A program made the position numbers and the translations under genes. Shown piece by piece: positions 15,405 through 35,720 of a stretch of 64,000 bases of DNA. Within the stretch, counting starts at the first letter, position 1, and every line of letters starts with the position of its first letter. The stretch covers positions 548,064 to 612,063 of the forward strand of contig PASP01000004.1 of the NCBI GenBank assembly GCA_002712005.1, read 5' to 3'. The DNA comes from Halobacteriovoraceae bacterium. GTDB taxonomy: Bacteria; Bdellovibrionota; Bacteriovoracia; Bacteriovoracales; Bacteriovoracaceae. The notes beneath the pieces were generated by a model. It saw nothing but the letters and a program-made list of their open reading frames with translations, was not told the origin of the DNA and did not search any database.

Positions 15405-17081
15405 TTAAGCGCTGGCCTGAACCTCTTTTCTTAACTCTTTTCTCAATATTTTCCCCACATTCGACTTAGGAAGTTCATCTCTAAACTCGACAAATTTTGG
15501 TCTCTTATACCCAGTCATATGCTCTTTACAATAAGCTTTGAGCTCCTCTTCTGTAAGGCTATCATCACTTCTCACCACATAAACTTTTACAACTTCACCA
15601 GAGTGATCATCAGGTACGCCAATGGCTGCAGCTTCGAAAACTTTTGGATGAGAAACGACAACATCTTCGACTTCATTCGGATAAACATTAAATCCGGATA
15701 CTAGAATCATATCTTTCTTACGATCTACAATTTGAAAGAATCCGTTCTCATCCATGAAACCAACATCACCAGTTTTAAAGAATCCATCAGCAGTCATAAC
15801 CTTTGCTGTTTCATCAGGACGGTTCCAATAACCTTTCATAACTTGAGGACCCTTAATCGCAATTTCCCCAATTTCACCAGTTGGCAATTTATTGTCATTA
15901 TCATCAAGAATACAGGCATCGGTTGAAGGAATCGGAAGACCAATTTTACTATTATAATCTTTTAGATCCATTGGATTGATACAAGCTGCTGGAGAAGTTT
16001 CTGTTAAACCATAAGCTTCAATAAGCGGAACTCCAGTAACCTTTTTCCATTTCTCTGCAACTTCTCTTTGTACGGCCATTCCCCCACCAAGAGTTAGCTT
16101 TAGTGAACTGAAATCAATATCTTTAAATCCTTCCGCATGAAGAAGACCGTTAAAGAGTGTGTTTACCCCAGTAAAAGCCGTAAACTTATGCTTCTTCAAT
16201 TCTTTAACAAATCCTTTCATATCTCTTGGATTTGTAATCAAGATATTCTTCGCCCCCATAATTGCAAAAATCATGCAATTCGCGGTCAAACTAAAGATGT
16301 GATAAAGAGGAAGTGGAGTAATAATCGTTTCCTCCCCTTCTTTTAATTCATTATCAATCCACGCTTTGGCCTGAACGATGTTGGCCACAATATTTCCATG
16401 AGTTAAAACAGCCCCCTTGGCCACACCAGTCGTTCCACCTGTGTACTGTAAGAATGCTGTATCATCTAAGTTACAGTCTACAGGCTTATAGTGATCGGCA
16501 TTAGCATCGAAGAGAACCGTTTTAAAATCAATAGTGTTAGGAAGGTCCCAATCTGGGATCATTTTCTTAACGTGCTTAATTACAAAATTTACGATCATCG
16601 CCTTGGGAAAACCTAATAAGTCGCCAATCCCAGTGGTTAGAATATTTTTAATTTTTGTCTTTGGCAGAGCTTCTTGTAATGTGTGACAAGAATTTTCAAA
16701 AATAAGAATCGTTTCACATTCAGAGTCATTGAGCTGATGCTCTAGCTCTCTAGCTGTATAAAGTGGATTTACATTTACGACAATTAGACCCGCTCTTAAA
16801 GCTCCAAAAAGTGCGATTGGATATTGAAGAATATTGGGCATCATCATGGCAAAGCGATCACCTTTTTTTAGGCCAAGATCATTTTGAAGATAACTTGCAA
16901 ACTTCTTGGTTAAGATATCCATCTCTCCCCAAGTAAAACATTTCCCCATACAATAAAAGGATTCTTTATCTGCAAACTTTTTAAAAGCTTGCTCTGTCAC
17001 CTCATTAATTGATGCATATTTTTTAGCATCGATTTCCGTAGGTACTCCCTTTTCATAATGTTTATGCCACACGCGTTCCAT
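15405..17081 (-). CDS. fadD: Long-chain fatty-acid--CoA ligase (AMP-forming)
   Basis: The 558-residue protein has all hallmarks of the ANL adenylating superfamily. They are the P-loop-like YTGGTTGVAKGAVLTHGN (about residues 213-230), the LIEAYGLTETSP adenine-binding motif, TGDVGFMDENGFFQIVDRKKDMI around the hinge, and the C-terminal GKILRKELR with the catalytic Lys. It activates fatty acids to acyl-AMP and then acyl-CoA for beta-oxidation or lipid synthesis, at the inner face of the membrane. Length and the GYKRPKFVEF segment fit bacterial FadD rather than acetyl-CoA synthetase. No beta-oxidation genes are adjacent. The ATG at 17081 is preceded by AAGGAT. Chain-length preference cannot be read from sequence. 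Confidence 0.92.
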   Translation of the reverse strand: MERVWHKHYEKGVPTEIDAKKYASINEVTEQAFKKFADKESFYCMGKCFTWGEMDILTKKFASYLQNDLGLKKGDRFAMMMPNILQYPIALFGALRAGLIVVNVNPLYTARELEHQLNDSECETILIFENSCHTLQEALPKTKIKNILTTGIGDLLGFPKAMIVNFVIKHVKKMIPDWDLPNTIDFKTVLFDANADHYKPVDCNLDDTAFLQYTGGTTGVAKGAVLTHGNIVANIVQAKAWIDNELKEGEETIITPLPLYHIFSLTANCMIFAIMGAKNILITNPRDMKGFVKELKKHKFTAFTGVNTLFNGLLHAEGFKDIDFSSLKLTLGGGMAVQREVAEKWKKVTGVPLIEAYGLTETSPAACINPMDLKDYNSKIGLPIPSTDACILDDNDNKLPTGEIGEIAIKGPQVMKGYWNRPDETAKVMTADGFFKTGDVGFMDENGFFQIVDRKKDMILVSGFNVYPNEVEDVVVSHPKVFEAAAIGVPDDHSGEVVKVYVVRSDDSLTEEELKAYCKEHMTGYKRPKFVEFRDELPKSNVGKILRKELRKEVQASA

Positions 17082-17463: not shown

Positions 17464-17724
17464 ATGAGCGGTGATTTAAAAGGATTAAAAGAAGGAGAAG
17501 ACTACTATTTTAATGAACGTGGTCTTCTTGTTTTCACAGAAAGTTATCTTGAGAAGAAAGGGCGTTGTTGTTACAGCGGCTGCCTTCATTGCCCTTATGA
17601 TAAGAAGCTCAAAAATCAAAAGGTAAATCCAGATATTCCTCAAGAACTCCAACTCGATGGGCCAGACTCACCTTCCGATGAAGATCTCGAAAGCTTAGCG
17701 GATTACTATACTAAAAATCTATAA
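17464..17724 (+). CDS. DUF5522 small cysteine-rich protein
   Basis: The 86-residue protein shows the DUF5522 signature: EGEDYYFNERGLLVFTESY, then KGRCCYSGCLHCPYDK (about residues 36-52), with four to five Cys and one His close together. This arrangement suggests a metal or Fe-S site. The family is small, widespread and uncharacterised, and members often occur as short stand-alone proteins of about this size. The C-terminal 30 residues are acidic and probably disordered. The gene converges on the YihY-family gene, with 8 bp between the stop codons. Confidence 0.85.
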   Translation: MSGDLKGLKEGEDYYFNERGLLVFTESYLEKKGRCCYSGCLHCPYDKKLKNQKVNPDIPQELQLDGPDSPSDEDLESLADYYTKNL

Positions 17725-17732
17725 AATAGGAT

Positions 17733-18779
17733 CTAAGAAGCTTTTTTCACAGGCTCCAAAACCCCTTGCGAATCGACTGGTGGAATTCCAGGTAAAGGTT
17801 CAGCAGGAGAGGTTGAATGAGCCTTCCCTAAGCTTGCCTCTTTTAAGGGTTTCTTCTTTCTCATCATCACGGCAATTTGACCATTATAGAGCTCCTTCTC
17901 TCTTACACAGCTTACACTAGCTCCAAAGAAGAAGGCACACATCAAGAAGTAAACCCATAGGACAGCGACAACAAGGGTATAGAAATTCCCATAAGCTTGT
18001 CCCATCGTGTCCTTGGTGTAGAGATGATAGATCCAATAAAATGATTTTCCCATCGCAAAACAAGCAACAAAACTACAAGCTCCGTAAAAGCTCTTCTTGA
18101 GGTTAATTCTTTCAGGTGTTGACCATTGATAGAAGAAGGTAAAAAAGCCCAAAGAAAAAAGAGCCGGTATAAGATTATAATTAATAAAGAAAAGTGAGAT
18201 TGAATTGAGAGTCTCGTACTCACCAATCAGGCAGGCCTTCATAAAGGGCTTGTGACTTAAGGCCATGAACCCCGCCATAAAGAAAGCGACCGATAGACCC
18301 ATTCCCATAGAGCGAACATCTTCGATGAAGAAGCCACCCTTTGACTCGGATTTTGAAATTGTATTCACTCCAAAATAAAGGGAGGTCACAATTCCCAAAG
18401 AAGAGTAAACAAGAACGAGAAAGTTAATAAAACTAAATCCTGTATTTCCTTTTAACTGAGTCGTAACGATATTTTTAATAGATTCCAGAATCCATGGGGC
18501 AAGATTGGGAACATTGTTTTCAACTACGTTTAGGACAAAATCTCTGGCTTCTATAGGATTGGTAAAAAAGATTCCAGCGAGGGAGATCATCCATAGCAAA
18601 ATAGGACCAAAGCTTATAAGACAAAAGAAAGTAGCAGAGCCAGCGACAATTTCACCTTTTCTCTTTTTAAAGTGAAAGAAGCCATCTAATAAGCGATTGA
18701 CCACTCTCTTAATAAGTATAAAGCTATGAACTTCGGCAGTATTGCCCAATTCATTATAGTCGGCGGAGCTCTTTTTCAT
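17733..18779 (-). CDS. YihY/BrkB family inner-membrane protein
   Basis: About 348 residues from the ATG at 18779. An upstream TTG at 18797 in the same frame would add six residues. The protein has about six hydrophobic segments, beginning with the family's FFHFKKRKGEIVAGSATFFCLISFGPILLW region and including the LVVAVLWVYFLMCAFFFGASV C-terminal helix. The family was once misnamed tRNA-processing ribonuclease BN. It is now known only as a polytopic membrane protein, possibly a transporter. The cytoplasmic tail is Lys-rich and then Pro/Ser-rich. It sits 41 bp after the AlkC-like/GIY-YIG gene on the same strand, so the two could be co-transcribed. Confidence 0.88.
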   Translation of the reverse strand: MKKSSADYNELGNTAEVHSFILIKRVVNRLLDGFFHFKKRKGEIVAGSATFFCLISFGPILLWMISLAGIFFTNPIEARDFVLNVVENNVPNLAPWILESIKNIVTTQLKGNTGFSFINFLVLVYSSLGIVTSLYFGVNTISKSESKGGFFIEDVRSMGMGLSVAFFMAGFMALSHKPFMKACLIGEYETLNSISLFFINYNLIPALFSLGFFTFFYQWSTPERINLKKSFYGACSFVACFAMGKSFYWIYHLYTKDTMGQAYGNFYTLVVAVLWVYFLMCAFFFGASVSCVREKELYNGQIAVMMRKKKPLKEASLGKAHSTSPAEPLPGIPPVDSQGVLEPVKKAS

Positions 18780-18820
18780 GGATTCTTTATCGACCAAATA
18801 ACTTTAATACTTGAGTTCTT

Positions 18821-20206
18821 TTATATATTAAATAATTCCTTTAATAACGATAACTTATGACCGGAAAGGCTCTCCTTTTGATGGCGTGAAAGCTTCTTTA
18901 AAGCTGATTCTCTCTTTTGGGCGCTAGAACGGTCCTCAGCTCCCTCTAGGTGAATAAAAGCTAAAGGATTAAAGACCTTAGTATACTTCGCTCCTTTCTT
19001 ACCCGTGAGATGCTCTTGAAAACGCCTTGCCGGTTCAGTCGTCACTCCAGTATAGATCGTATTCTTTGAAGTATAGATCATATAAATATAATACGAATGA
19101 GATACTTGATTTAAAGTAAGGCTTAAGAAGAAGGGTTCTTTATGAAACGTTTTTCCATTAATAATAATCTCTAAGAAGTGAACCCCTTGATAGTAAACTC
19201 GGGTCGAAATTTCTTTGAAAAGATGTTCTTTCGTAACTTCATACTCACCCTTATCAAGCTCCATTTCAGAAAGCTTAAAAACTTTCCGTCCATAATCCCC
19301 AGATTTTTTCTTAAAATGAAGTGCGTATTCGATTCTCACTAAAGACTTTCTTTCTAGCTGTAAATCAAATTGAAACGAAAGCCTCTCTCCCATACCAAGA
19401 AAGGGTGTATGAAGCTTAAAGTGATTGAACTGGAGTCCTTCAAGTTCAGCTAATCCAAAAAGACAAAGGGCCTCTTGATGAGAAGCTTTGAGAAGAGTAC
19501 GTAGTCCGTGTTTTACAATCCACTGGGTTTCTTTAGAAGAACCTTTAAGCCATGCCTTTCCTATCTTAAGAGCAAGTTCAGGATGATCCTTTGAAATATC
19601 ATTTAGATTATTCGCAACAGACTTTCTTACATATAAGCTCGAGTCGTTTTTAAGATTCTCTAGTATCGGTAAAATTGAAGAAGGATTTTTTTTAAATTCC
19701 TTAAGGGCACTGGCCCAGGGTAAACGCGGTCGGCATCCCTCGCTAGATAATCTGCGAACATGATGATTTTCATGTTGGGACCAACTCAGCATTTTGCTCA
19801 TCGTCTGTTCAGGATACCTTTCAATGAAGGGGCGAATAGCGAACTCTGCAGAAGAAAATTCCGTCAGAACTTCAAGTGCATCCATCGAAATTTCCCAATG
19901 CTCAAGTCCGTTCCGTTCTATGTACTCAGGAAAGAAAAGACCCGCATAACCGCCAAAGTCTTCTCCCGCAACCTTGAGAATCTCGCAAATCTGTTGAAAT
20001 GAAAGTCCAGCTTTCACAGCAAGTTCCTCGTGAATACATCGACAAATATGAGAGGCGCGCTGCTTCAATTCATAACCTTGCCATTGGAAATTGAATATTT
20101 GCACCTGAAAAGACTTATCATCAAAGAGGGGCTCTACATTCTTTAACGAGACACCAAGCGTCTCTATATAGTTAGAATCATAAATATTTTTTAAAGGCTC
20201 GGCCAC
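18821..20206 (-). CDS. AlkC-like DNA alkylation repair protein fused to a GIY-YIG nuclease domain
   Basis: The 461-residue protein appears to have three parts. Residues about 1-250 are helical HEAT-like repeats like those of the AlkC/AlkD DNA glycosylases (for example HHVRRLSSEGCRPRLPWA and SSLYVRKSVANNLNDISKDHPELAL). Residues about 255-365 are beta-rich and match in position the Ig-like domain reported for AlkC proteins. Residues 372-455 are a GIY-YIG domain of the small UPF0213 type: YYIYMIYTSKNTIYTGVT, then RRFQEHLTG and the conserved Glu region. AlkC enzymes excise N3-methylpurines. A GIY-YIG domain could cut the abasic product or target DNA structures. The start is a GTG at 20206 with AGAGGGGA just upstream. 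The fusion reads through with no frameshift. Confidence 0.82.
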   Translation of the reverse strand: MAEPLKNIYDSNYIETLGVSLKNVEPLFDDKSFQVQIFNFQWQGYELKQRASHICRCIHEELAVKAGLSFQQICEILKVAGEDFGGYAGLFFPEYIERNGLEHWEISMDALEVLTEFSSAEFAIRPFIERYPEQTMSKMLSWSQHENHHVRRLSSEGCRPRLPWASALKEFKKNPSSILPILENLKNDSSLYVRKSVANNLNDISKDHPELALKIGKAWLKGSSKETQWIVKHGLRTLLKASHQEALCLFGLAELEGLQFNHFKLHTPFLGMGERLSFQFDLQLERKSLVRIEYALHFKKKSGDYGRKVFKLSEMELDKGEYEVTKEHLFKEISTRVYYQGVHFLEIIINGKTFHKEPFFLSLTLNQVSHSYYIYMIYTSKNTIYTGVTTEPARRFQEHLTGKKGAKYTKVFNPLAFIHLEGAEDRSSAQKRESALKKLSRHQKESLSGHKLSLLKELFNI

Positions 20207-20240
20207 AATCCCCTCTCACAAGCATAGACAAATGATTAAG

Positions 20241-20317: not shown

Positions 20318-20392
20318 CGGAATGTAGCGCAGGGGTAGCGCGTTCGTCTGGGGGGCGAAAGGTCGCTGGTTCAATTCCAGTCATTCCGACCA
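20318..20392 (+). tRNA. tRNA-Pro (anticodon GGG)
   Basis: The cloverleaf is complete: acceptor CGGAATG/CATTCCG, D-arm GCGC/GCGC, anticodon stem TTCGT/GCGAA with loop CTGGGGG (anticodon GGG), and T-arm GCTGG/CCAGT with TTCAATT. The CCA end is encoded. The 3' 12 nt belong to the 21-bp core that is repeated at 28682-28702, so the integrated element keeps the tRNA intact. Confidence 0.97.
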
Positions 20393-20401
20393 TTCTAAAA
20401 A
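20381..20401 (+). repeat. Left attachment core (attL) of the integrated element
   Basis: Twenty-one bases from TCATTCCGACCA to TTCTAAAAA are identical to 28682-28702. They cover the 3' end of tRNA-Pro and nine bases beyond CCA. Sequence before and after the core differs between the two copies, except for a shared GCC nearby. Confidence 0.92.
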
Positions 20402-20428
20402 GGCCAGTTTTAAGATCTGGCCTTTTTT
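20401..20428 (+). terminator. Intrinsic terminator after tRNA-Pro
   Basis: AGGCCAG and CTGGCCT form a 7-bp GC-rich stem around TTTTAAGAT, followed by a T-run. It lies just inside the element, so the element brings in a terminator for the tRNA transcript. Confidence 0.85.
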
Positions 20429-20491
20429 ATTTCTAAATATTCGATTTAATTACAAACCTGATAATCAATAGTTACTTAAGGTCTTCTTCTC

Positions 20492-20521
20492 AATATTTCG
20501 TTACATTTCGTTACATTTCAC
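20492..20521 (-). repeat. Three phased 10-bp repeats near the left end of the element
   Basis: Read on the minus strand, three adjacent 10-bp units are GTGAAATGTA, ACGAAATGTA and ACGAAATATT. They share the CGAAAT core with the four units at 27197-27236, which lie on the plus strand. They sit about 90 bp inside the left core, where integrase arm sites or Xis sites are expected. Confidence 0.75.
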
Positions 20522-20563
20522 TAATTGCTACCTTTTTGCTTCCTTCTCGCTACCAATACCCAG

Positions 20564-21547
20564 TTACAAAACACTAAGCCTCTCAACAAGCATAGAGCGG
20601 TCTGCTTTATGCTCTGTTTTGTATGCCAATAAGTACTTAACCCCATCTTTAGCAGCAATTATTATTCGTTTCTTACCACTCCTTCCATCCCCATTTCCAT
20701 TTACATTAGCAGGAACAACGTCGCATCTAGAAATACTATATCCAGATAATCGAGGAGGAGTATGATTATGCCAATCAATGCTATTTTTATGAAACTCATC
20801 ACCGTTCTGGCACGAAGGTAATACAGTTCCCCTTAAAGCACTCAAACATATCATTTTAAAATCAGAAGACTTTGTGCTTCTAATGTCATTCATAAAGCAA
20901 TCAGTAATAACCACATCTCTAAAGCTCTTTAGTAACTCATTCTCTATTCCAAGCATGAAAGCTTGAATTAAAGCATATTGGAAGAATAGTTCTTTAGTAA
21001 ACTCTCTTTTTCTTCCCAAAACATCTTCAATTTTTAAGTTATAAGTATTTAAAAGGTCGGTAATTTTAGTATTATTTGGAACAAGCGGCTGTTCTGTAAA
21101 AGCAAGTGAACAAGCATAGTTTGATAAACAAATATTGCAAATATTCTTCTCAACATTCTGGTTTAATCTATCAACAAAAATCGGTAATATTCTTTCAAAC
21201 ATAGTATTAACTATAAGCCTAGAAATAGTTTCACCTTTTACATCTTCAGGTAAGAGATCAATGACCTCCTCTCTATCACAGTCCTCCTTTTTCAAAGGAG
21301 TATCATATAGGATTATTCCACATTGATCATCTTCTTCAATCATTAGACACAGAGACCTTATGTGAGCGGGAAACATCATTGAAGACATAAGCTCCTTTGG
21401 AATTAATATACTAACAAAGTTTCTCCATGTACCTGCGAACTGATAAAGTTGCTCCATAAAAAAATAACTATTGTCGAAATCCAAACAGCTTTGAATTTCC
21501 TTAAATTGCCTTGGTGATATTAAAGCGATGACTTGATTAAAGGACAT
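20564..21547 (-). CDS. Unrecognised partner of the AAA ATPase (candidate defence effector)
   Basis: This 327-residue protein has no domain I recognise. It starts at the A shared with the ATPase stop codon (TAATG), so its translation is coupled to the ATPase. The N-terminal half is helical. A small Cys group (NICNICLSNYAC, near residue 140) could bind metal but is not a standard zinc finger. The last 80 residues hold DWHNHTPPRLSGYSISRCD and a Gly/Asn-rich turn followed by GKKRIIIAAKDGVKYLLAY, which looks like a compact beta-rich end. It is the last gene before the left att site. In satellites and prophages this place is often used for defence cargo. Nuclease or other effector activity is a guess; no catalytic motif is certain. 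Confidence 0.7.
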   Translation of the reverse strand: MSFNQVIALISPRQFKEIQSCLDFDNSYFFMEQLYQFAGTWRNFVSILIPKELMSSMMFPAHIRSLCLMIEEDDQCGIILYDTPLKKEDCDREEVIDLLPEDVKGETISRLIVNTMFERILPIFVDRLNQNVEKNICNICLSNYACSLAFTEQPLVPNNTKITDLLNTYNLKIEDVLGRKREFTKELFFQYALIQAFMLGIENELLKSFRDVVITDCFMNDIRSTKSSDFKMICLSALRGTVLPSCQNGDEFHKNSIDWHNHTPPRLSGYSISRCDVVPANVNGNGDGRSGKKRIIIAAKDGVKYLLAYKTEHKADRSMLVERLSVL

Positions 21548-23052
21548 TAGATTCCCATCTTCTGCTTTCGTATTTTGTTTAAATCAGCAGATAGTTTTTT
21601 CCTTTCATCCATAAACCCTTCTGGAGTATTTTCAAAAAACCCTAGAGAATCAAAATCCACTTTTCTAGAAATTGATGTACCTTTAGAGAATTCAATCCAA
21701 TACATTTTAAGAACACTTTCCAGTTTCGGATCTTCGATTTGTAGATTAATCAACTTTTGTAAAAAGGTCTCACTATGAGTCTCTATGAACATAATTTTCC
21801 CAATAGTCGACATCTCTACAAAAAAGTTCGCCAAAAGAGTTTGCATTTTAGGGTGTAAGTGAATTTCAGGCTCATCGATAATTGTAAAACTACCATGTGG
21901 GGCCGTTAAGATTTTAAAAATAATCGGAATTACTTGGCTAACCCCGAAGCCCATTTGATTAATAGGATGCAGACGTCCATTCTTCTTCAACATAATTTCA
22001 GTTGAGTACCCTTCAACCAATTCACGAATATGAATAGACTCTCCCAACTTAAAAAAGTCGCACACCCAATAAGTTAGAGCCTCCTCTACTGTCGCTTTTT
22101 CAAAAAGCTCAGCCCCGTCATCAGGTTTTCGGTATGAGATTAATTTATCCTTTATATCAATAAACTGAAAAAGAGGATTAGGATTATCTCCTTCTGTATA
22201 TACTCTTCGAGGAGCCCCTCTAAAAGCAGGTATATACTGAAAGCTATTCCCTAAATCTTGTAATAAATATACCTCATAATGATTTACTCTTAATGGAATA
22301 TCTTTTTTTAAAACTTCTTTAAAATCTTTAGAAGAAAAGAAACCTACATATTTTGAAACAATTATATTTTTAATATTTTCAGCATCGATCGAAAAAGAAT
22401 CTAAAAAAAGACCCTCCCTAAATCTCACCTTTCGAACGCCCCTGAAACTAACATCACTCAGAAATAATGAATCATAGTCTAGTTCATCAAGTAGAGCCTC
22501 TTTCTCTGTTTCCTCCAATGAGGACTTTTCAATACCTACTTCAATATTTCTTTTTATCTTTGAAAATGTAGAGGCATCTTCAAAGTAAAACATTCTAGCT
22601 CCATGAATATCGTAAGAGTCACTTGACTCTTCGTAACGAAAATAAAGGTTATCCTTATCTGATTGATATTTAAAATCTAGAAGGTGATATCCCATTTCAT
22701 TACTTTTATTCGATTTTATATAATCGCTATCTCTGAAGATAAATTCAAAGGTATTTTTCTTAGAACTTTCGATAAGGAACCTTAAGTTAGGATTGCCTTC
22801 ATCAGACCGTAACTCTAAGCGATTTCCCATATTTATGTAGTTACCATTTAAATTCAAAATGGCATTTGGCGTTTTAAAGATATTACTTCGTCCAGAAATT
22901 ATCCCCAAAGATTGAGCAAAAAGTAACAAGACTTGATACACAGAACTTTTACCAGAGCTATTTTCACCAGATACGACAGTTATATTTGAAAACTCTACTC
23001 TCGTCTTATTTTTGAAGGCTTTAAAGTTTTCCATCTCTATAGTGTGAAACAT
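21547..23052 (-). CDS. ABC/SMC-type AAA family ATPase (AAA_15/AAA_21, DUF3696-like end)
   Basis: The 501-residue protein begins with an RecF/SMC-like core (IEMENFKAFKNKTRVEF) and Walker A GENSSGKSS at residues 29-37. The ABC-like signature GFGVSQVIPII is near 368-378, Walker B FTIIDEPEIHLHP at 389-401, and the switch ETHSE near 426-430. The C-terminal NTPEGFMDERKKL resembles the DUF3696 ending seen in many AAA ATPases of mobile elements. The long middle part is the usual insert that replaces the coiled coil. Such ATPases are the sensor or motor part of many two-gene phage-defence systems, including Gabija-, Septu-, OLD- and PARIS-like ones, but the partner here matches none I know. The start codon follows GGGG at 6 nt spacing, directly after an intrinsic terminator. 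Confidence 0.88.
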   Translation of the reverse strand: MFHTIEMENFKAFKNKTRVEFSNITVVSGENSSGKSSVYQVLLLFAQSLGIISGRSNIFKTPNAILNLNGNYINMGNRLELRSDEGNPNLRFLIESSKKNTFEFIFRDSDYIKSNKSNEMGYHLLDFKYQSDKDNLYFRYEESSDSYDIHGARMFYFEDASTFSKIKRNIEVGIEKSSLEETEKEALLDELDYDSLFLSDVSFRGVRKVRFREGLFLDSFSIDAENIKNIIVSKYVGFFSSKDFKEVLKKDIPLRVNHYEVYLLQDLGNSFQYIPAFRGAPRRVYTEGDNPNPLFQFIDIKDKLISYRKPDDGAELFEKATVEEALTYWVCDFFKLGESIHIRELVEGYSTEIMLKKNGRLHPINQMGFGVSQVIPIIFKILTAPHGSFTIIDEPEIHLHPKMQTLLANFFVEMSTIGKIMFIETHSETFLQKLINLQIEDPKLESVLKMYWIEFSKGTSISRKVDFDSLGFFENTPEGFMDERKKLSADLNKIRKQKMGI

Positions 23053-23062
23053 AATTCCCCAT

Positions 23063-23095
23063 AAAAAAAAACCCCATACTTAATTGCATGGGGTT
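23063..23095 (-). terminator. Intrinsic terminator/attenuator directly before the ATPase gene
   Basis: On the minus strand AACCCCAT, a 10-nt loop and ATGGGGTT form a perfect 8-bp stem followed by nine T. It lies between the 35-codon ORF and the ATPase start, which is only 10 nt past the T-run. The first stem arm could also pair with ATGGGG at 23057-23062, which is the ATPase ribosome-binding region. Confidence 0.85.
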
Positions 23096-23128
23096 CAATA
23101 TTAAGATTAATTAAAAGTCATTGTTGAA

Positions 23129-23236
23129 CTATTCAGCTTCTTCCAAGAATAAAGATTTCAACTGCTCTTTCAACTCTTGATCTGCCTCACGAAGCATCTC
23201 TTCTTCTGTAATAGCATCACTGTTATAATCGATCAT
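23129..23236 (-). CDS. 35-residue acidic peptide upstream of the ATPase operon
   Basis: The short frame MIDYNSDAITEEEMLREAD... ends LFLEEAE and a TAG stop. It has a very good ribosome site (AAGGAG, 6 nt before the ATG). It is acidic and predicted helical, with no signal peptide. It is the first frame of the minus-strand transcript that leads, through an intrinsic terminator, into the ATPase and its partner. It could be a leader peptide controlling read-through, a small antitoxin-like or trigger component, or an unrelated small satellite protein. Its strong translation signal is what supports it; composition alone would not. Confidence 0.65.
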   Translation of the reverse strand: MIDYNSDAITEEEMLREADQELKEQLKSLFLEEAE

Positions 23237-23275
23237 GTTAAACTCCTTTTCTATATTCTACTGTATCGGCATAAA

Positions 23276-23357
23276 GCAAATTTAACCTTAGGGAAAATTT
23301 GCCTACACTTATCATTATATCAATAACTTATGCAAGAATTGTTAAATAAAAGTGTAG
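23276..23357. promoter_or_regulatory. Two inverted repeats in the ATPase/terS divergent gap
   Basis: GCAAATTT (23276-23283) pairs with AAATTTGC (23295-23302). Immediately after it, CTACACTT (23303-23310) pairs with AAGTGTAG (23350-23357). Both are perfect 8-bp inverted repeats. They lie between two divergently read gene groups, as expected for operators of a satellite master regulator, but no protein is shown to bind. Confidence 0.45.
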
Positions 23358-23478
23358 ATATTTCAAGTTTTGTATTACATTTCTTTCTCTGCATCACACA
23401 ATAAAAAACTAGATAAATTTCAATTACTCTATATTTTTGTTAAAATACAATGAGTTAGTCTCCTTCCCTGAGGTTTAT

Positions 23479-24015
23479 ATGACTCACTTAACAAAAAAAG
23501 AAACTGCGTTCAGTCAAGAATATATTATAGACTTAAATGCAACAGCGGCTTGCAAACGGGCTGGTTACTCAGAGAAATCAGCCGACAAAATTGCTCACCA
23601 ATTACTAGGGAAAACTAGAGTTCAAGAAGAAATTCAAAGACTCCAAAAAGAAAGATCAATCAGAACTCAGATTACAGCTGATAAGGTTCTTCAAGAATTA
23701 GCAGCTGTTGCCTTTGCGCGAGTCCCAGAAATCATGGCAGCCATAGAAGAAGGAAAAGAAGACTTCCCTGCTTATGCTGCATTAAAAACAGTTAAGAATA
23801 CGCAAAGCAAGAATGGGGAATCAACACTCAATATATCTATTGATGGAAAAGTTAAGGCTCTAGAGTTACTTGGAAAGCATCTTGGTATGTTTGATAAGAA
23901 AGATAAAAAGTCTCCACTTGATAGAGAAAGAAGTCTTGATCGAATCAGAGGGGCTATTCGTAGAGTCAAAGAGTCACATGCGAAAATTAACCAACCTTCG
24001 CAACCAACTCAGTGA
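23479..24015 (+). CDS. Phage terminase small subunit (TerS, Terminase_2 type)
   Basis: About 178 residues from the ATG at 23479, which has a GAGG at proper spacing. A TTG 42 nt upstream has no such site. The N-terminal domain is the DNA-binding part of the Terminase_2 family: LTKKETAFSQEYIIDLNATAACKRAGYSEKSADKIAHQLL, followed by the conserved VQEEIQ and a central helical oligomerisation part. The KVKALELLGKHLGMF motif follows near residues 130-145. TerS recognises the packaging site and brings the large subunit. No large subunit is near, so it must act with a helper phage's TerL or be a relic. The last 29 bp overlap the end of the convergent 353-aa-type gene. In SaPI/PICI satellites a lone TerS redirects packaging. 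Confidence 0.88.
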   Translation: MTHLTKKETAFSQEYIIDLNATAACKRAGYSEKSADKIAHQLLGKTRVQEEIQRLQKERSIRTQITADKVLQELAAVAFARVPEIMAAIEEGKEDFPAYAALKTVKNTQSKNGESTLNISIDGKVKALELLGKHLGMFDKKDKKSPLDRERSLDRIRGAIRRVKESHAKINQPSQPTQ

Positions 24016-25039
24016 GTCTTAGGTTTCCAGTCTCTAACCTTTCAGCATAATCCATTCTTTCTGATATTCTTGTAGCAAGACCCCTCGCGACCACAGCAAA
24101 CGCAATTCCAGCAACTGGAGAGGCAACACAAGCTAAAAACTCTAGCTCGGCTAACAAAGCCCCCTCTAAGACCAGAGAGCGGCCTGCAAATGCTCCGAGA
24201 GTTCCAATACTATTGATAGTTACATTTTTAGGAAGTGAGCTTAGAACGAGATTTAGATCCCTATAAGCATACCATTGGAAAAAGGATTGAATTACAGTAG
24301 CAATAGCAACAGGTCCAGCAATACTCTCAAAGAACTCACTATTGATCTCTGAGATTTGGCCGTTTAAACCATCTCTAATTTCTTCCCTTGATAAACCAAG
24401 GTCTTCAATCTTATTGGCCAAACCTAAACGAGCAGCCTTCTCTCTAACTTCATCAAATATTTCACTGTTAACAGCAAAGTTTGGATACTCTCCTACAATT
24501 TCGTGACTACCATCAGCATTTATCCAATTCACATCTTTAAGATCAATTTTCTCATTAACCTCATGAATCTTCTCAATAACCTTATCTGCATCTGAATAAA
24601 CTTTTATTTGAATATATTCTTTCCCTGTATCAGTGAACCTTACTGCATCTACAGCCTCTTGATTTGATACGTGAGCTAGGTTTATAGATCCATTAGAAAG
24701 ATCCTCAAATCTTAATTCTGCGATAGCTCCTTGTAGCTGATTAATCACTCCACCGATAGATTCATCACCATTCATCATTTTAGATATTAAGAATTCTTTG
24801 ACTTCATTTGTAGAGGAGAATGCCTCTCTTTTAATTAGCTCCACTGCACCGATGATTTCAGGATTAAGGTTTACATCAACAAGGCCATCACCAATTAGAA
24901 TATCTGCTAAAACTAGATTTGGAGCTAATGAATATCCAAGGACTTCATCAATGATTCTCTCATTTTCCCATCTTAATACAGTCTTTGAAATACCATTACC
25001 TCTTGAGGGATATTTCTTAGAGAACTTTTTTATGCTCAT
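23987..25039 (-). CDS. Unknown satellite protein: nuclease-like core plus hydrophobic C-terminus
   Basis: About 350 residues from the ATG at 25039, which has GGAAGG 8 nt upstream and overlaps the end of the 119-aa gene by 23 bp. The middle region contains GAIAELRFEDL, then EAVDAVRF and YIQIKVYSD. The order Glu...Asp...Gln-x-Lys recalls the PD-(D/E)XK nuclease core, but the match is short and unconfirmed. The C-terminal third has Ala/Gly-rich hydrophobic segments (AFAGRSLVLEGALLAELEFLACVASPVAGIAFAVVA) that could cross or insert into a membrane. With the small coiled-coil partner upstream it may be an effector/partner pair. No known toxin family is evident. It converges on and overlaps the terS end. 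Confidence 0.65.
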   Translation of the reverse strand: MSIKKFSKKYPSRGNGISKTVLRWENERIIDEVLGYSLAPNLVLADILIGDGLVDVNLNPEIIGAVELIKREAFSSTNEVKEFLISKMMNGDESIGGVINQLQGAIAELRFEDLSNGSINLAHVSNQEAVDAVRFTDTGKEYIQIKVYSDADKVIEKIHEVNEKIDLKDVNWINADGSHEIVGEYPNFAVNSEIFDEVREKAARLGLANKIEDLGLSREEIRDGLNGQISEINSEFFESIAGPVAIATVIQSFFQWYAYRDLNLVLSSLPKNVTINSIGTLGAFAGRSLVLEGALLAELEFLACVASPVAGIAFAVVARGLATRISERMDYAERLETGNLRLTELVAKVG

Positions 25040-25376
25040 GACCTTCCAACCTTTGTTCAAGTTCCTCAATTCTCTGAAGTGCTTCCTCTAGCTTAGTGGC
25101 CAAGATGTCATTATATGTATCTTGAATTGTTAAGCGCTCTTCTACTAAGGCCAAAAGTTTTTTCCCTGATATTTCATCTAGTGCATTTGAGGCATCACCA
25201 CTTAGCTTTGAAGCTTTCTTACCAACCTCTGTAGACATCACAGTTTTTGTAGCAGCATCTAGTCTCTCTGAAACCTTATGCTCTTCTAGGGCCTTTTTGA
25301 GCTCACTAGAACCCTTAGATAAAGTTTCTTCTGCAAAGTTCAAAATAGAACCTAGCCCATTTGATTTCTTGGTCAT
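25017..25376 (-). CDS. Small coiled-coil protein, partner of the downstream unknown gene
   Basis: This 119-residue protein is almost entirely helical and charged. Its last third has heptad-like spacing (LATKLEEALQRIEELEQRLEGHE), suggesting a coiled coil for dimerisation. The first part has Lys/Ser-rich amphipathic segments. It starts at an ATG with AGAGG 6 nt upstream, and overlaps the start of the next gene by 23 bp, so the two are translationally coupled. No family is recognised. It could be a chaperone, adaptor or antitoxin-like partner. The divergent XRE gene shares its promoter region. Confidence 0.65.
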   Translation of the reverse strand: MTKKSNGLGSILNFAEETLSKGSSELKKALEEHKVSERLDAATKTVMSTEVGKKASKLSGDASNALDEISGKKLLALVEERLTIQDTYNDILATKLEEALQRIEELEQRLEGHEHKKVL

Positions 25377-25395
25377 AAATACCTCTCAAAATACA

Positions 25396-25425
25396 TACTA
25401 TCGGACGTACTCCTGATCGGTAGTA
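25396..25425. promoter_or_regulatory. Imperfect inverted repeat between the 119-aa gene and xre (operator candidate)
   Basis: TACTATCGGAC and the complement of GATCGGTAGTA (TACTACCGATC) match at 8 of 11 positions around a short spacer. The gap of 66 bp between the divergent genes makes this the natural site for autoregulation by the XRE protein. Confidence 0.5.
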
Positions 25426-25442
25426 AATGAAAGAATATTAGT

Positions 25443-25676
25443 ATGTATTCCAAGAAACAGGATGAAGCCTTTCTCAAAGAGTTTGGACTTCGTATAAGAC
25501 AGCTAAGAACCGATAAAGGTTGGACTCTAGAAGAGACCGAGCTTCATGGTTGGCCATCTTGGAGACATCTTCAAAAGATTGAGGCTGGGAAAAATATCAC
25601 AATTCTGACGCTAAGAAAAATTGCTACTCTCTACAAAGTAAACTTTTCTGAACTCTTAGATGATCTACAAGATTAG
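25443..25676 (+). CDS. XRE/Cro-CI family regulator
   Basis: The 77-residue protein is a single HTH_3 domain: LKEFGLRIRQLRTDKGWTLEE, a recognition helix region PSWRHLQKIEAGKN, and ITILTLRKIATLYKVNFSELL at the C-terminus. It lacks a dimerisation or sensor domain, so it resembles Cro or the small regulators of satellites. It is divergent from the 119-aa/350-aa pair and convergent with the DUF559 gene, overlapping it by 4 bp. The inverted repeat at 25396-25425 is its likely binding site. Confidence 0.9.
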   Translation: MYSKKQDEAFLKEFGLRIRQLRTDKGWTLEETELHGWPSWRHLQKIEAGKNITILTLRKIATLYKVNFSELLDDLQD

Positions 25677-26275
25677 CAATATCCACAAGAACTGAAATAA
25701 TCATTAACAAATTGAAGATTGAGATTTTTATAAATCGTATGAGTATACAGCTTCTTTAGAAGATTCTTTCTTTGTGTGAAACTCTTCTTTTTACTTTGTT
25801 GAATGAGTGACTTTAATAACTCTTCAGCATTGTAAGTAATATCTTCATTTAAAATTACAAGACAATAGCATCCAAGATTATGAATAAGCTCATCTCTAGT
25901 TCTATCTTTACCCATTTTATTTTCATTATTATGAATAGACCCATCAACTTCAATGAAGATGCCATAATCAATTAAATAGAAATCAATAGATCTATGGCCA
26001 ACTCTAATAGAGGGAATAAACTTAATCTTTTGCTTCTTTAGTATTGCCTCTAAGTACAATTCACTCTCAGTCCTAACTTCATCTAGATTTAGCTCTCTTC
26101 TAAGTTTTCGACATGCAATTAGATAAAGTCCTTTCAAGTCTTCCAAGAATTTCTTATTTCTATTCTTACGACTCAAAGCGTTTATTAGCTTAATAATTTC
26201 ATCTTCATGACTCAGGATACTCTCTAGCTTGATTAACTCCTGATGCTCTAACCTTAGATCTCTTGAAATTCCCAT
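25673..26275 (-). CDS. DUF559-type (restriction endonuclease-like fold) protein
   Basis: About 200 residues from the ATG at 26275; a TTG nine nt upstream is an alternative. The first 80 residues are a basic helical region. Residues about 75-150 fit the DUF559/Vsr-like nuclease fold: ESELYLEAILKKQKIKFIPS, then VGHRSIDFYLIDYGIFIEVDGSIHN, and RDELIHNLGCYCLVILNEDI. The conserved Glu, Asp and E-V-D-G residues give the expected metal site. DUF559 proteins occur in mobile elements and near restriction genes, with mostly unproved function. The C-terminus has a Lys/Gln-rich segment and ends SSCGYC. It may cut DNA of competing phage or take part in element processing. Confidence 0.8.
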   Translation of the reverse strand: MGISRDLRLEHQELIKLESILSHEDEIIKLINALSRKNRNKKFLEDLKGLYLIACRKLRRELNLDEVRTESELYLEAILKKQKIKFIPSIRVGHRSIDFYLIDYGIFIEVDGSIHNNENKMGKDRTRDELIHNLGCYCLVILNEDITYNAEELLKSLIQQSKKKSFTQRKNLLKKLYTHTIYKNLNLQFVNDYFSSCGYC

Positions 26276-26457
26276 ACACAACAACCTATCCGTTACAAAA
26301 TGCTTAACGGCCCAAACAGTAATTAAAACTGATAGTTACAACAATCTCCAACTCAACGAGTCGCAAAAAAGTTTTATTCTCTCTTGCCCTTGAAATTGGT
26401 GGTTGATATGACCAGTGGAGCACAGATTTAACTTTAATTGTTGGTACTTTTAGTGAC

Positions 26458-27162
26458 ATGAAACTTTCAATCGAACCTGAACATTTTAAATATATCGACC
26501 CTAAAGATATTGGTGACTTTGAGCCACAAGAAGTCTCTACAATTCTCGATAATTATTGGAATAAGTACCTAGTTAATGAGCTTGAGAACCACAACCTAGA
26601 AGAAGATAGAGTGAAGAACTATATTCTATCGCTCTTAAGCCTAATGCATCCAAAATCCAAAACTGGATCACTAGAAGATAATGCAAAAAAGAAGCAAAAA
26701 GAGCGTATTCTCAAATCATTCAATCTTCATAAGACTCAACTAGAAGAAGTAAATAGCTCTATTCGATCACTCCCTCTAAAGCACTCAAGGGTATTAGAGC
26801 TTACTTACTATCTTCTCTATGGAAATAAGAATAAGTTTTCAAAAGAGCTAAAGTTCAAGTCATTGCACAAAGGCTGTATGTTCACAGCAAAACTTCTTTG
26901 CCTCCTAGGCCTTGATAACAATGATTCAGAAGAGAATCAAAAGTTTCTATCGGTTCTCTCTCAACTCGATAACCCTGAAATCGTCGACGAATACAAGTTA
27001 AACCTACTCAATGACAGGGCCATGATCACTTCACAATCCCTTAGAAAGAAGCTTAAAGACTATGACCCTTTTCAGACTGAAGGCTTCTACAAGGGATTTG
27101 CGCTATCCAGCACAAACAAAGTCATTAAAATCTCCAATGTCACTAAAAGTACCAACAATTAG
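26458..27162 (+). CDS. Unknown satellite protein upstream of xis (possible replication or regulatory role)
   Basis: This 234-residue protein has no recognised domain. It is mainly helical and charged, with a basic central part (LPLKHSRVLELTYYLLYGNKNK) followed by HKGCMFTAKLLCLLGLD. The mid-region resembles a helix-turn-helix or winged-helix arrangement but lacks a clear family motif. It lies alone on the plus strand, 77 bp before the excisionase-like gene, so the three may share a transcript. The place between the regulators and int is where small satellites often keep replication-initiation or induction genes; that role is only inferred. The 173-bp gap upstream (26285-26457) shows no clear gene. 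Confidence 0.65.
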   Translation: MKLSIEPEHFKYIDPKDIGDFEPQEVSTILDNYWNKYLVNELENHNLEEDRVKNYILSLLSLMHPKSKTGSLEDNAKKKQKERILKSFNLHKTQLEEVNSSIRSLPLKHSRVLELTYYLLYGNKNKFSKELKFKSLHKGCMFTAKLLCLLGLDNNDSEENQKFLSVLSQLDNPEIVDEYKLNLLNDRAMITSQSLRKKLKDYDPFQTEGFYKGFALSSTNKVIKISNVTKSTNN

Positions 27163-27196
27163 TTAAGAAACCTGCATATCCTCCATTTGTATCGAT

Positions 27197-27236
27197 ACGA
27201 AATATAACGAAATGCTATGAAATATAGCGAAATGGA
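27197..27236 (+). repeat. Four phased 10-bp repeats before the excisionase-like gene
   Basis: Four adjacent units are ACGAAATATA, ACGAAATGCT, ATGAAATATA and GCGAAATGGA. GAAAT recurs exactly every 10 bp, which puts the sites on one face of the helix. The last unit merges with the GGAG ribosome site of the next gene. The same unit occurs in reverse orientation near the left end (20492-20521). Confidence 0.85.
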
Positions 27237-27239
27237 GAT

Positions 27240-27458
27240 ATGAATATGGAAAGTATATTAAATTCGAATATTAGTGAAGAGTGGTTAGATTTTAAATCAG
27301 CTGCCAAGTACCTAGGGATAACAGAAAATAACCTCAGAATAAGAGTTCACAGAGGCCAAATGACCCCCTCAGGAAGACTAGGAAAGCTTTTAAAGTTTAA
27401 AAGAGAAGACCTTGATAATTATTTGATTATCTCTAACAAGGAGAGAATCAATGATTAA
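27240..27458 (+). CDS. xis: Excisionase-like helix-turn-helix protein (HTH_17/MerR-like)
   Basis: This 72-residue protein matches the small HTH_17 excisionase group: SEEWLDFKSAAKYLGITENNLRIRVHRGQMTPSGRLGKLLKFKREDLDNYL. These proteins bind repeated DNA sites and bend the DNA to steer the integrase toward excision. It starts at ATG 27240, right after the phased 10-bp repeats that are its probable binding sites, so it may also repress its own gene. It overlaps the integrase gene by 8 bp. Confidence 0.82.
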   Translation: MNMESILNSNISEEWLDFKSAAKYLGITENNLRIRVHRGQMTPSGRLGKLLKFKREDLDNYLIISNKERIND

Positions 27459-28608
27459 GCAATACACCTATCAAAACAAAAAATACTATATGGTTCAAAT
27501 AAGTGTAACGGGACCAAATGGTAAAAGATGCCAAAGAAAAGCTACAAAGAACCCTAGAACAAAAGCTCGATTTGCCTCTAAATTAGCTGCCTCCAAATAT
27601 GAATTTGAGTTCAGAAAAGAGGTTGAAGCAAAGCTTCTTGGTGAAATTGGTAATCCTACTTTTTCAGAGTGGCAAAGAACTTTCTTAAATCATTTTAGTA
27701 CACAGTTAAAAGTAGGAACAATGATGCAATACAATGGCGATCTTAAAAAATGGACTCCTCAATGGTTTATGAATAAGAGGATTAAAAATATCTCCAAGGA
27801 CGACTTAACGACTCTTATCTTTCGTGAGATGAAGCAAAAAGGTGCAACACAATTCACCCAAAAGAGAATTCTCAAAGGGATTAGAAGAGTGCTTCAGTAC
27901 GCATACGAAGAAGGAGTCATTGCCAGAAATCCATGCATAGGAATAAAAGTAGATATCCCTGAGAGAACTAAGGCAGTTCTAAACTCTTCAGAAGCGAGTA
28001 AGCTTCTTCTTGAAGCCAAACGAGTTGAACATAGGTTTTACTATATCTGGGCATTTGCTTTATTTTCAGGGCTAAGAAATGGTGAACTTTATGGACTTAG
28101 ATGGACTGATGTTGATCTAGAAGGAAGAAAGCTTCGTATTTCATCCCAATGGACAAATAAGGATGGCTATCATTCAACAAAGACCAGTAAGGTCAGAGTC
28201 GTACCAATAAATGATTCGCTTGAGAGAGTTTTAAAAGAACTTCGAAATATTGGTCCATTTGAAGAAGAGCTTAAAGGCCTTAAGAAAACAACAGTTTACT
28301 TTGATGACTTAGTTCTTCCTAGGCTTCGAGAATGGCGAAATGGTGAACAGGCCCAAGTTTTAAGAGAGTTTTGCAAAGCAATATGTATTACAAGTGTGAA
28401 GTTTCACGATTTAAGAGCAACGTTCATTACAAACCTCTTAAGTCAAAATACTCCTACTTCTGTAGTTATGGCGATTGCTGGACACTCAAAACTAAGTTCA
28501 ACAGAGCAGTATTTAAGATTAGCAGGTATTCCCGTACAAGGAGCAACTGATAACTTAAGCTTTGAGCTCCCCAAGCAAGTCTATGGCACAGTATTGAAAA
28601 TGATCTAA
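27451..28608 (+). CDS. int: Tyrosine recombinase (integrase)
   Basis: The 385-residue protein has an N-terminal arm-binding-like part (VQISVTGPNGKRCQRKATKN), a SAM-like core-binding domain (about 70-170), and the catalytic domain. The catalytic residues are in FSGLRNGELYGLRW (Arg), KFHDLRATFITNLL (His-x-x-Arg) and AGHSKLSSTEQYLR (His and nucleophile Tyr). It ends 73 bp before the right att core, as integrases do. It recombines the 21-bp core in tRNA-Pro. Translation is coupled to xis by the 8-bp overlap. The N-terminal arm-type domain suggests use of the 10-bp repeats as arm sites. Confidence 0.95.
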   Translation: MIKQYTYQNKKYYMVQISVTGPNGKRCQRKATKNPRTKARFASKLAASKYEFEFRKEVEAKLLGEIGNPTFSEWQRTFLNHFSTQLKVGTMMQYNGDLKKWTPQWFMNKRIKNISKDDLTTLIFREMKQKGATQFTQKRILKGIRRVLQYAYEEGVIARNPCIGIKVDIPERTKAVLNSSEASKLLLEAKRVEHRFYYIWAFALFSGLRNGELYGLRWTDVDLEGRKLRISSQWTNKDGYHSTKTSKVRVVPINDSLERVLKELRNIGPFEEELKGLKKTTVYFDDLVLPRLREWRNGEQAQVLREFCKAICITSVKFHDLRATFITNLLSQNTPTSVVMAIAGHSKLSSTEQYLRLAGIPVQGATDNLSFELPKQVYGTVLKMI

Positions 28609-31205: not shown

Positions 31206-31240
31206 AAATAAGGCGTTTCGGCGCCTTATTTCTTTTTCTT
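31206..31240 (+). terminator. Intrinsic terminator after the PfpI-like gene
   Basis: AAATAAGGCG and CGCCTTATTT form a perfect 10-bp stem around TTTCGG, followed by CTTTTTCTTT. The stem overlaps the stop region of the convergent 161-aa gene, so it may end both transcripts. Confidence 0.92.
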
Positions 31241-31711
31241 TGTTAAAATTAGGTTTTCTGAGGATTGAAGATGTCCTTCATAGCAATCAACAATTTCTAA
31301 GGCACCTGGTGTATCACAGAAACTTTTTCTATCTACAACTTTTAAAGTCTTTCCCATTACATCTAAGCATTTCATTTCTTCTATAAAAAATTGACTCTTT
31401 TCAAGTACTTCTTTCTCGATTTTCTTGTAACGAGATAAATCAATCTTTTGTTCCTCATAGCATTTCAAGGGCTCAGTGCTTACCACTTGAACCTTGGTAA
31501 GAACCCCTTTCAGAACGACTTTCGTGTGGTCGAGATTTCTTCTTTTTAAATATGAGAGATTGGAGAATTCTCTTTTTTTGCAACTTAGAACTTTAACTTC
31601 ATAAGAAGTACAGGGGATATGATTTACCCACGAAGCAAACTTTGCTTGCGCTGAAGAAGATAATCCTAAACATAGTAAAAAAACCTTTAAAGCAACAATC
31701 CTAACCATCAT
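31226..31711 (-). CDS. Small exported Cys-containing protein, unknown function
   Basis: The 161-residue protein has a signal peptide (VALKVFLLCLGLSSSAQA, cleavage near residue 23). The mature part is basic with six or seven Cys (PCTSYEVKVLSCKKRE, LKCYEEQ, MKCLDV, FCDTPGALEIVDCYEG), enough for three disulfides. No family is known. An in-frame second Met follows the first, so the exact start is open. It ends inside the bidirectional terminator and starts 5 bp after the stop of the 428-aa gene, with which it may form a transcript. Confidence 0.7.
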   Translation of the reverse strand: MMVRIVALKVFLLCLGLSSSAQAKFASWVNHIPCTSYEVKVLSCKKREFSNLSYLKRRNLDHTKVVLKGVLTKVQVVSTEPLKCYEEQKIDLSRYKKIEKEVLEKSQFFIEEMKCLDVMGKTLKVVDRKSFCDTPGALEIVDCYEGHLQSSENLILTKKKK

Positions 31712-31715
31712 TACA

Positions 31716-33002
31716 TCACCCCTTCTTTGAATCCTTTAATCCCTTTGCACGAATTGGCAAATAACCTGCCTCACCATCAAATGCTAAGTGTAATAAGTCG
31801 CCTTTCTTTAATATCACTTCTCGATTCAGACGAATTCCTCCTGGTTTTTCACTGGGAGTAACTCGAATGGGATATTCATCATTTTGTCCCATTAAACTAA
31901 TAATATGACCTCTTCTTTGCTTGAAAAAAGATTTCTCACTTTCACTATAGAAAAAAGGACTTTCTAAAAGGGCGACCTCTGTCTTGGCCTTAAGAGGTAT
32001 AAGTTGAATGGGGATATTTAGAAGCTTAATAGACTCACCTTCTATAAGAACTTGTTCTTCTTGTATTTGAAAAAAACCATTGTGAGTAGAATGCCCATCA
32101 CCTACAAAATAAGAGGCTTCACAGTTTTCCTTTTTGAAAATCCTTATCTCCTGAAGTTTATTATGTAAGGAAACTTTCTTTTTAATTTCTTGAGCGCTAA
32201 GTTTTGAATCTAATTTCCCTAAGCACAGATGACCTAGGGCAAGGCCCGGATCATTGGGATCTTTCCCATAGGTCTTTAGAAATCTAAAAAACTCATCTTT
32301 TGTATCAACATCTATTTTTTGATGCCCAAAATGAATATCAAACTCTCCACTAAGCACATCTAGTGGTCTAATCGCCGACTCGAATATTTCCTCGTCTTTA
32401 TCAAGAAAAACTTCCCACCAAGTCTTACCAATAATCCCGTAATGTAGAACGAGATCCCCAAAGTCTATATCCATTGAAAAATCATTTAACATTTCAGGAG
32501 AGAGGCGAAACTGCTGACGTTCTAAGAACTCAACAATAACTGCAGAAAAGGCATCCTTATTCTCTTCATTACGATACAAGCTTTCAAGATCATGAACACA
32601 ATGATTAAGACGAGTAATCGCGCTTTGAACTAAGGGAGAAGAGTTCAAGTAAACTTCACTTGGGCTATGAGCCTCTCCATATAAAACTTCAAAATGGTGG
32701 TGAATCACATTGGCAAAGTCTTGATCAAAATAGCCCTTTCCCCTTTCTTCTATTTTATAAAGCCCTTCAGCGTTAATTATATCGATCGCCTTATTTAATT
32801 GATCAAAAATTTTCTTCTTTTCATCTTCCTCTAGTCTAAAACCTGTAAAACGTGCAAAAAGAGGCTCCTCTTTTATCATGAGTTTCTTTAATTCTTGAAT
32901 CCAAATCCATGCATAGTCTCTGTTTAAAATATTCCACTTTAAAGTGAAGACTTCATTCTTTGTATTTGCAAAGTCAATTTCAACGACAAAAGCGCTACTC
33001 AT
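31716..33002 (-). CDS. Unknown protein, longer member of a tandem paralogue pair
   Basis: The 428-residue protein is related over its first 300 residues to the next gene. Matching segments include FTLKWNILNRDYAWIWI against IHLSWKILDHEISFYWI, ARFTGFRLEE against SRFIGFIEGN, and VIHHHFEVLYG against KIHHHFSFLIG. LNHCVHDLESLYR also matches LNDYVHELESWDR, and FGDLVLHYGIIGKTWWEVFLDKDEEI matches FGDLCLHYDQIGKTWLEVLVDEDEVI. The HHH motif and the HxxxG-x-TW part are shared and may be functional. The extra C-terminal 115 residues are beta-rich and unlike the paralogue. No signal peptide is visible. The two genes overlap by 8 bp. Function is unknown. Confidence 0.72.
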   Translation of the reverse strand: MSSAFVVEIDFANTKNEVFTLKWNILNRDYAWIWIQELKKLMIKEEPLFARFTGFRLEEDEKKKIFDQLNKAIDIINAEGLYKIEERGKGYFDQDFANVIHHHFEVLYGEAHSPSEVYLNSSPLVQSAITRLNHCVHDLESLYRNEENKDAFSAVIVEFLERQQFRLSPEMLNDFSMDIDFGDLVLHYGIIGKTWWEVFLDKDEEIFESAIRPLDVLSGEFDIHFGHQKIDVDTKDEFFRFLKTYGKDPNDPGLALGHLCLGKLDSKLSAQEIKKKVSLHNKLQEIRIFKKENCEASYFVGDGHSTHNGFFQIQEEQVLIEGESIKLLNIPIQLIPLKAKTEVALLESPFFYSESEKSFFKQRRGHIISLMGQNDEYPIRVTPSEKPGGIRLNREVILKKGDLLHLAFDGEAGYLPIRAKGLKDSKKG

Positions 33003-33951: not shown

Positions 33952-33994
33952 AGATTTGATTATAACCTAGAGTCCAAACACAAAAAACTGACTT

Positions 33995-34834: not shown

Positions 34835-34892
34835 GACCAGATATTGCCTTATATGGTCTATGACTACAATCAGCCCCTATAAATAATTCAAT

Positions 34893-35564: not shown

Positions 35565-35720
35565 ATCTCAACTCCAATGAATTGTTCTCTACTCTTATTA
35601 GAACCTGTATTGGCGGGGAAATGAAGCCGGTCAAGATTGCTTTCTCTTTTACAAAAGTAAGACTTCCTTATTTACGGCCGTTTAAAGTTTTTACAGCTCC
35701 CTTTATTTCCCTAAGAAACA

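Follow-up and report, generated by a model that had tools for sequence, protein, structure and literature searches.

An AlkC-type alkylpurine DNA glycosylase fused to a UPF0213-type GIY-YIG domain in the Bacteriovoracaceae

Described fusions of repair proteins with GIY-YIG domains

The fusion of a DNA glycosylase with a GIY-YIG domain has been described for the Methanococcales, in which endonuclease III is joined to a COG1833-type GIY-YIG domain (MJ0613 and MMP0538) and a coupling of base removal and strand cutting was proposed (PMC1564403). The authors of the same survey warn that GIY-YIG domains are mobile and form fusions of doubtful meaning (PMC1564403). Plants also have GIY-YIG domains of the Slx1 cluster on MutS homologues, and Lactobacillales have them on methyltransferases. 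Slx1 alone is weak and requires a targeting partner.

The protein described here is encoded in a stretch of 64,000 nucleotides from a Halobacteriovoraceae bacterium (contig PASP01000004.1), termed the window in the following. It resembles MJ0613 in having the glycosylase at the N-terminus and the GIY-YIG domain at the C-terminus. However, MJ0613 consists of a bifunctional HhH glycosylase/lyase and COG1833, whereas the window protein combines a HEAT-like, monofunctional AlkC with a GIY-YIG domain of the Slx1-like UPF0213 group; neither the HhH domain of endonuclease III nor the His/Cys-rich tail of COG1833 was found in it by Pfam. A sequence-only reading of this DNA had stated that the fusion is not known from described repair enzymes. 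This holds for AlkC with GIY-YIG, a combination not found in the literature searched, but not for the general arrangement, since endonuclease III-GIY-YIG is on record (PMC1564403). As far as we have seen, it is the AlkC and UPF0213 families that had not been joined before.

The plant CHM/MSH1 and Lactobacillales COG4123 fusions likewise carry a C-terminal GIY-YIG domain of the Slx1 cluster on a DNA-repair or DNA/RNA-acting protein, but there a mismatch-repair protein or a methyltransferase takes the place of the glycosylase. Slx1-Slx4 is comparable in concept, a weak GIY-YIG nuclease depending on a partner for activation or targeting, although it comprises two chains in eukaryotes and has no AlkC part, while the window protein is a single chain. 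According to Pfam, the RING/PHD zinc finger of Slx1 is absent, with 13 residues following the GIY-YIG domain, and the Cys-rich linker and the UvrB-binding or Cho C-terminal domain of UvrC/Cho were not found, GIY-YIG and DNA_alkylation/HEAT being the only significant matches. UvrC and a DnaQ-GIY-YIG protein are encoded by separate genes of the same genome. The latter is a DnaQ-type exonuclease-GIY-YIG fusion of 438 aa and of the Cho-like+Exo type (L154, G000:C15:128705-128923), and two further small proteins of the genome (L151, L152) belong to a different GIY-YIG subfamily.

Taken singly, the two halves are closest to AlkC (Pseudomonas fluorescens 5VHV/5VI0; Bacillus cereus AlkC) and to the UPF0213 proteins YhbQ and YazA (1YWL, 1ZG2). 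AlkC aligns end to end with residues 1-362 at 35% identity and has the same HLR plus Ig-like layout and the same acids, but known AlkC stops after the Ig-like domain, whereas the window protein has 99 extra residues carrying the predicted nuclease. UPF0213 proteins agree with the GIY-YIG domain of the window protein in sequence, fold and catalytic residues; however, they occur as separate proteins, about 100 aa long and of unproven function, and the domain studied here is joined to a glycosylase.

The glycosylase half and the GIY-YIG half

The fusion gene is located on the minus strand at 18821-20206 and encodes 461 aa from a GTG start to a stop codon at 18821-18823. A purine-rich putative ribosome-binding site, GAGAGGGG, was read from the sequence at 20210-20217 (minus strand), and the GTG start is supported by its alignment with the ATG or GTG of relatives that begin MAEPLKN. 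The sequence-only reading had placed the uninterrupted frame correctly without giving its strand; the plus strand of the interval contains many stops, and the open frame, of 461 codons, is that of the minus strand. Its residue numbers for the GIY-YIG domain, 372-455, agree with the minus-strand protein, and the architecture it had proposed, HEAT-like repeats followed by an Ig-like part and a UPF0213-type GIY-YIG domain, is fully supported by Pfam, phmmer against PDB and AlphaFold2.

The HEAT-like repeat glycosylase domain (19442-20206, minus strand, residues about 1-255) and the Ig-like beta domain (19121-19441, minus strand, residues about 256-362) make up the AlkC half. A phmmer search against all PDB chains aligned residues 3-359 with Pseudomonas fluorescens AlkC (5vhv/5vi0, E 7.5e-65, 222 bits), and Pfam reported a DNA_alkylation match at residues 118-212 (E 1.2e-5). 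The AlphaFold2 model, built on the window protein together with 32 relatives, has a mean pLDDT of 91.3; residues 1-250 are helical and residues 258-362 all-beta, and the linker near 363-370 is weaker. As in AlkC, a HEAT-like solenoid is followed by an Ig-like domain, and VIA-align superposed the model on 5vhv/5vi0 with Z 37.7-37.8 over 355-357 residues; the comparison with the AlkC-DNA structure containing an abasic site gave Z 37.8 and an rmsd of 1.7 over 355 residues. Residues E121, R152, E156, W164 and D203 are invariant across 33 AlkCs from many phyla as well as in all fusions, and the alignment ranges indicate that they bear the same numbers in PDB entry 5vhv. The five are taken as the active-site residues of AlkC, and E121 and D203 are reportedly active-site acids of PfAlkC (Shi et al. 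2018). Judged by sequence and model, residues 1-362 are predicted to form a complete AlkC alkylpurine DNA glycosylase. In G038, G047, G129-G131 and many Bacteroidota genomes, AlkC-like matches end at around residue 250, and the frames that hold them measure about 260-290 aa; these are AlkC forms without the Ig-like domain.

A short linker of about 8 residues (19097-19120, minus strand, residues about 363-370, pLDDT 69), which in the alignment exceeds those of the other fusions by four residues, leads to the GIY-YIG domain (18863-19096, minus strand, residues about 371-448). Pfam PF01541 matched residues 372-444 with E 1.6e-15 and 57.6 bits at a cut-off of 22.6, phmmer against PDB aligned residues 370-446 with the UPF0213 protein EF2693 (1ywl, E 1.1e-13), and the profile comparison with UPF0213 entries of the PDB reached E 5e-23. 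NCBIfam gave no match for the AlkC half or the GIY-YIG half. The alpha/beta pattern of GIY-YIG (beta-beta-alpha-beta-alpha-alpha) appears at 372-448 of the main model, in which only two alignment rows covered this part, the short GIY-YIG fragments not being alignable with the full-length AlkC rows. Since the VIA-align rows barely extend past residue 365, the assignment of the fold is based on the sequence and on the domain modelled alone with eight rows (pLDDT 83). The best Foldseek matches of this domain model were the UPF0213 structures 1zg2/1ywl, which also ranked first in the sequence comparisons, followed by the GIY-YIG domains of Slx1 and UvrC with insignificant E-values.

The catalytic residues, on which the sequence-only reading had made its proposal depend, are present: Y375, Y385, R394/R395 and E433 are invariant in 6/6 fusions, and G387, H399, K404, K407, K437 and K438 are identical in these six proteins as well. 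By sequence and model, residues about 371-448 are thus predicted to be a UPF0213-type GIY-YIG nuclease with intact catalytic residues. Between fusions, the identity of the GIY-YIG part (47-81%) is at least as high as that of the glycosylase part (44-74%), which argues against a decay of the nuclease part; these values suggest that the domain has been kept under selection after the fusion.

In the GIY-YIG tree, the fused domains of the genus of the window (L001-L005, genus g1) are set on a long stem branch, and their loop motif reads KGAKYTKAN in place of KGAKFFRSN in the standalone relatives, which suggests that substrate contacts changed after the fusion. The same long stem and the replacement of KFFRS by KYTKAN would also fit a GIY-YIG part that has become a catalytically dead DNA- or RNA-binding add-on. 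We regard this as very improbable, given that every canonical catalytic position is invariant, that the domain is strongly conserved and that the KYT variant also occurs in UPF0213 proteins of phages and Firmicutes.

Relatives, locus and the route to the fusion

The same uninterrupted fused frame is present in the congeners G002, G003, G005 and G006 (52-55% identity), and a fused frame without internal stops was also detected in G040, which belongs to another genus (43% identity). The absence of the fusion in relatives, with a stop or frameshift between the two parts, had been named as an outcome that would speak against the proposal; instead, the fusion is common to these five relatives, with no internal stops. 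An artefact of assembly or frameshift, or a chance product, was ruled out by the occurrence of the same fused frame in independent genomes. The contig of a further congener (G004) ends within the fusion gene, and no match to the gene was found in congener G001, the assembly of which is 99% complete. One carrier of the fusion is the public contig CATLOT010000015.1.

Outside the Bacteriovoracaceae, no fusion was found among 368 Bdellovibrionota, 274 Gammaproteobacteria, 218 Bacteroidota and 199 Bacillota genomes, and a linkage of separate alkC and giy genes was not seen among the matches listed. UPF0213-type matches as separate genes are common in the groups sampled. A GIY-YIG frame within 3 kb was present at one of the 80 nearest AlkC loci of GTDB genomes, namely in the public copy of the G005 fusion, and at none of the other 79. 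No fusion was found in plasmids and phages; a Rhizobium plasmid match covering 88% of the query (H5) corresponds in the annotation to a normal AlkC gene ending short of the extension. A reading as a defence or phage gene was rejected, as PADLOC gave no match for the fusion and the phage and plasmid searches found none.

The surroundings of the gene are conserved in part. Upstream lies tRNA-Pro(GGG) (20318-20392, plus strand), which occupies the same position relative to alkC in the fused relatives G005, G002, G003 and G040 and in G026; one ORF separates the two in G119, and in G013 the tRNA adjoins cl14-giy. On the downstream side, a YihY/BrkB-type membrane protein (17733-18797, minus strand) is followed by a DUF5522 protein (17464-17724, plus strand) and an AMP-binding enzyme of the acyl-CoA ligase type (15405-17081, minus strand). 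In most of these loci the latter two are found beyond giy, and this includes the locus of G008, where giy is present and alkC is absent. An unrelated location of the G040 fusion was considered and rejected, as the same tRNA-Pro lies upstream and only the downstream side differs.

The tRNA-Pro also borders an island. Mobile-element-like in character, it extends from the tRNA-Pro 3' end over 20393-28608 and is closed by a phage-type integrase (27451-28608); a small terminase subunit (23437-24015) is encoded in it, and a second copy of the tRNA-Pro 3' end was not found within the window. A two-gene unit of the island (20564-23052) consists of an AAA_15/AAA_21 ATPase matching NsnB in PADLOC (E 5e-52) and a partner of 327 aa that has no Pfam or PADLOC match, and looks like a defence gene pair. 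Beyond the island, at 31226-38760, are genes that in G003 lie directly near the tRNA. Relatives of two of the window-island genes, namely a small terminase (49%) and a 203/231-aa protein (32%), occur near tRNA-Pro at the fusion locus of G040 (L143 1566-2812), so that related elements seem to use tRNA-Pro in both genomes.

Several relatives have the two genes side by side. In G054, G119, G120 and G121 (genus g3), a separate giy gene lies directly behind alkC and overlaps it by the four bases ATGA, and in G127 (g17) the frames of two separate genes overlap. G026 has the same-strand order alkC, adenine-deaminase-like gene, family cl14 gene and giy. The adenine-deaminase-like gene, a name that we assigned from our own reading of its sequence instead of a database match, sits in the interval from alkC to giy in G026 and immediately precedes giy in G020 (L130 2395-4149 and L136 1418-3184); its presence may be tied to adenine-type bases released by repair or be due to chance. 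G119 has, besides its alkC-giy pair, a second and more distant AlkC that is unlinked to giy (L149, G119:C11).

With overlapping pairs and a four-gene run beside the same tRNA-Pro, the route to the fusion becomes visible in the relatives. The simplest history would start from an ancestral cluster of tRNA-Pro, alkC, ade, cl14, giy, DUF5522 and ligase; a deletion of the middle genes would have made alkC and giy adjacent, and translational coupling followed by loss of the stop would have produced the single fused gene. A tree calculated for 126 AlkCs places every linked one in a single clade of 15 rows (SH-aLRT 87) that also contains three unlinked AlkCs, and the fused state requires two changes. 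The weakly supported GIY-YIG tree is compatible with two fusions, so that one and two fusion events cannot be separated for certain.

A history of this kind may also have left two independent domains on one chain, a by-product of operon deletion and stop loss in which the fusion is tolerated and not used, AlkC repairing methyl adducts and the GIY-YIG domain retaining its old UPF0213 function. Standalone giy in many genomes of the family, its occurrence without alkC at this same locus (G008, G013), the four g3 species retaining two genes with ATGA overlap, and a linkage confined to one family in the genomes sampled are in line with this explanation, as is the caution that GIY-YIG fusions may be accidental (PMC1564403). 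We nevertheless consider it less likely than a coupled repair protein. One genus has retained the fusion in five species that share about 53% identity, and a second genus has it too; the fusion may also have arisen twice, according to the two state changes on the alkC tree, and has a short linker throughout.

Proposed function and meaning

We propose, with a probability of roughly 45%, that the gene encodes a two-domain base-excision repair protein whose nuclease would cut at or near the abasic site made by AlkC. On meeting a small cationic methyl adduct, most of all 3-methyladenine, AlkC would kink the DNA and cleave the glycosidic bond, so that an abasic site remains. The GIY-YIG domain tethered to AlkC, which in the family members studied is a metal-dependent phosphodiesterase, would then cut at or near this site, and the toxic abasic intermediate would be handed over in place. 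AlkC would in this way do for the GIY-YIG domain what Slx4 does for Slx1, serving as a targeting partner, which small Slx1/UPF0213 nucleases do not have on their own.

AlkC is a monofunctional glycosylase, so that another activity is needed to cut its abasic-site product, and its Ig-like domain takes part in kinking the DNA, so that a nuclease attached to this domain is well placed for cutting near the product. However, the genome also encodes an Xth AP endonuclease and an EndoIV-like protein, and cutting of AP sites by the GIY-YIG domain is therefore not required. Moreover, neither partner depends on the other, since giy occurs without alkC in the two genomes mentioned above and alkC without any giy match in G133. 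In a more specific version of the proposal, which we put forward with more doubt than the general one, a single polypeptide would pass the abasic site from the kinked-DNA product complex of AlkC to a metal-dependent GIY-YIG nickase, giving a 3-methyladenine-specific incision without AP lyase or a separate AP endonuclease.

Alternatively, the GIY-YIG domain might act as an Slx1-like structure-selective nuclease on branched DNA arising from replication stalled at 3-methyladenine, with AlkC bringing the nuclease to the damage and the abasic site itself staying uncut. UPF0213/YhbQ/YazA proteins are the bacterial relatives of Slx1, 3-methyladenine blocks replication, and AlkC reportedly bends DNA strongly (Shi et al. 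2018). A structure-selective activity of UPF0213 proteins was, however, not found in the literature searched, and the neighbourhoods seen have no linkage to recombination genes except an SMC gene adjoining the G040 fusion. We therefore consider processing of forks or flaps unlikely.

Incision at or near the abasic site being our preferred reading, the series from neighbouring over coupled to fused genes suggests, without proving it, that base removal and strand cutting are performed by one repair protein. UPF0213 proteins such as YhbQ and YazA are present in all bacterial groups surveyed, and a tested function or activity was not found for them in the literature searched. The fusion, together with its two-gene and four-gene precursors in the relatives, provides a lead that UPF0213 acts in base excision repair of alkylation damage in this family, and the locus is a clear example of stepwise domain fusion. 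It also points to a possible way in which the action of a glycosylase could lead to strand incision with no AP lyase step. If true, the handover to a GIY-YIG nickase would be the first defined pathway for the small UPF0213 nucleases.
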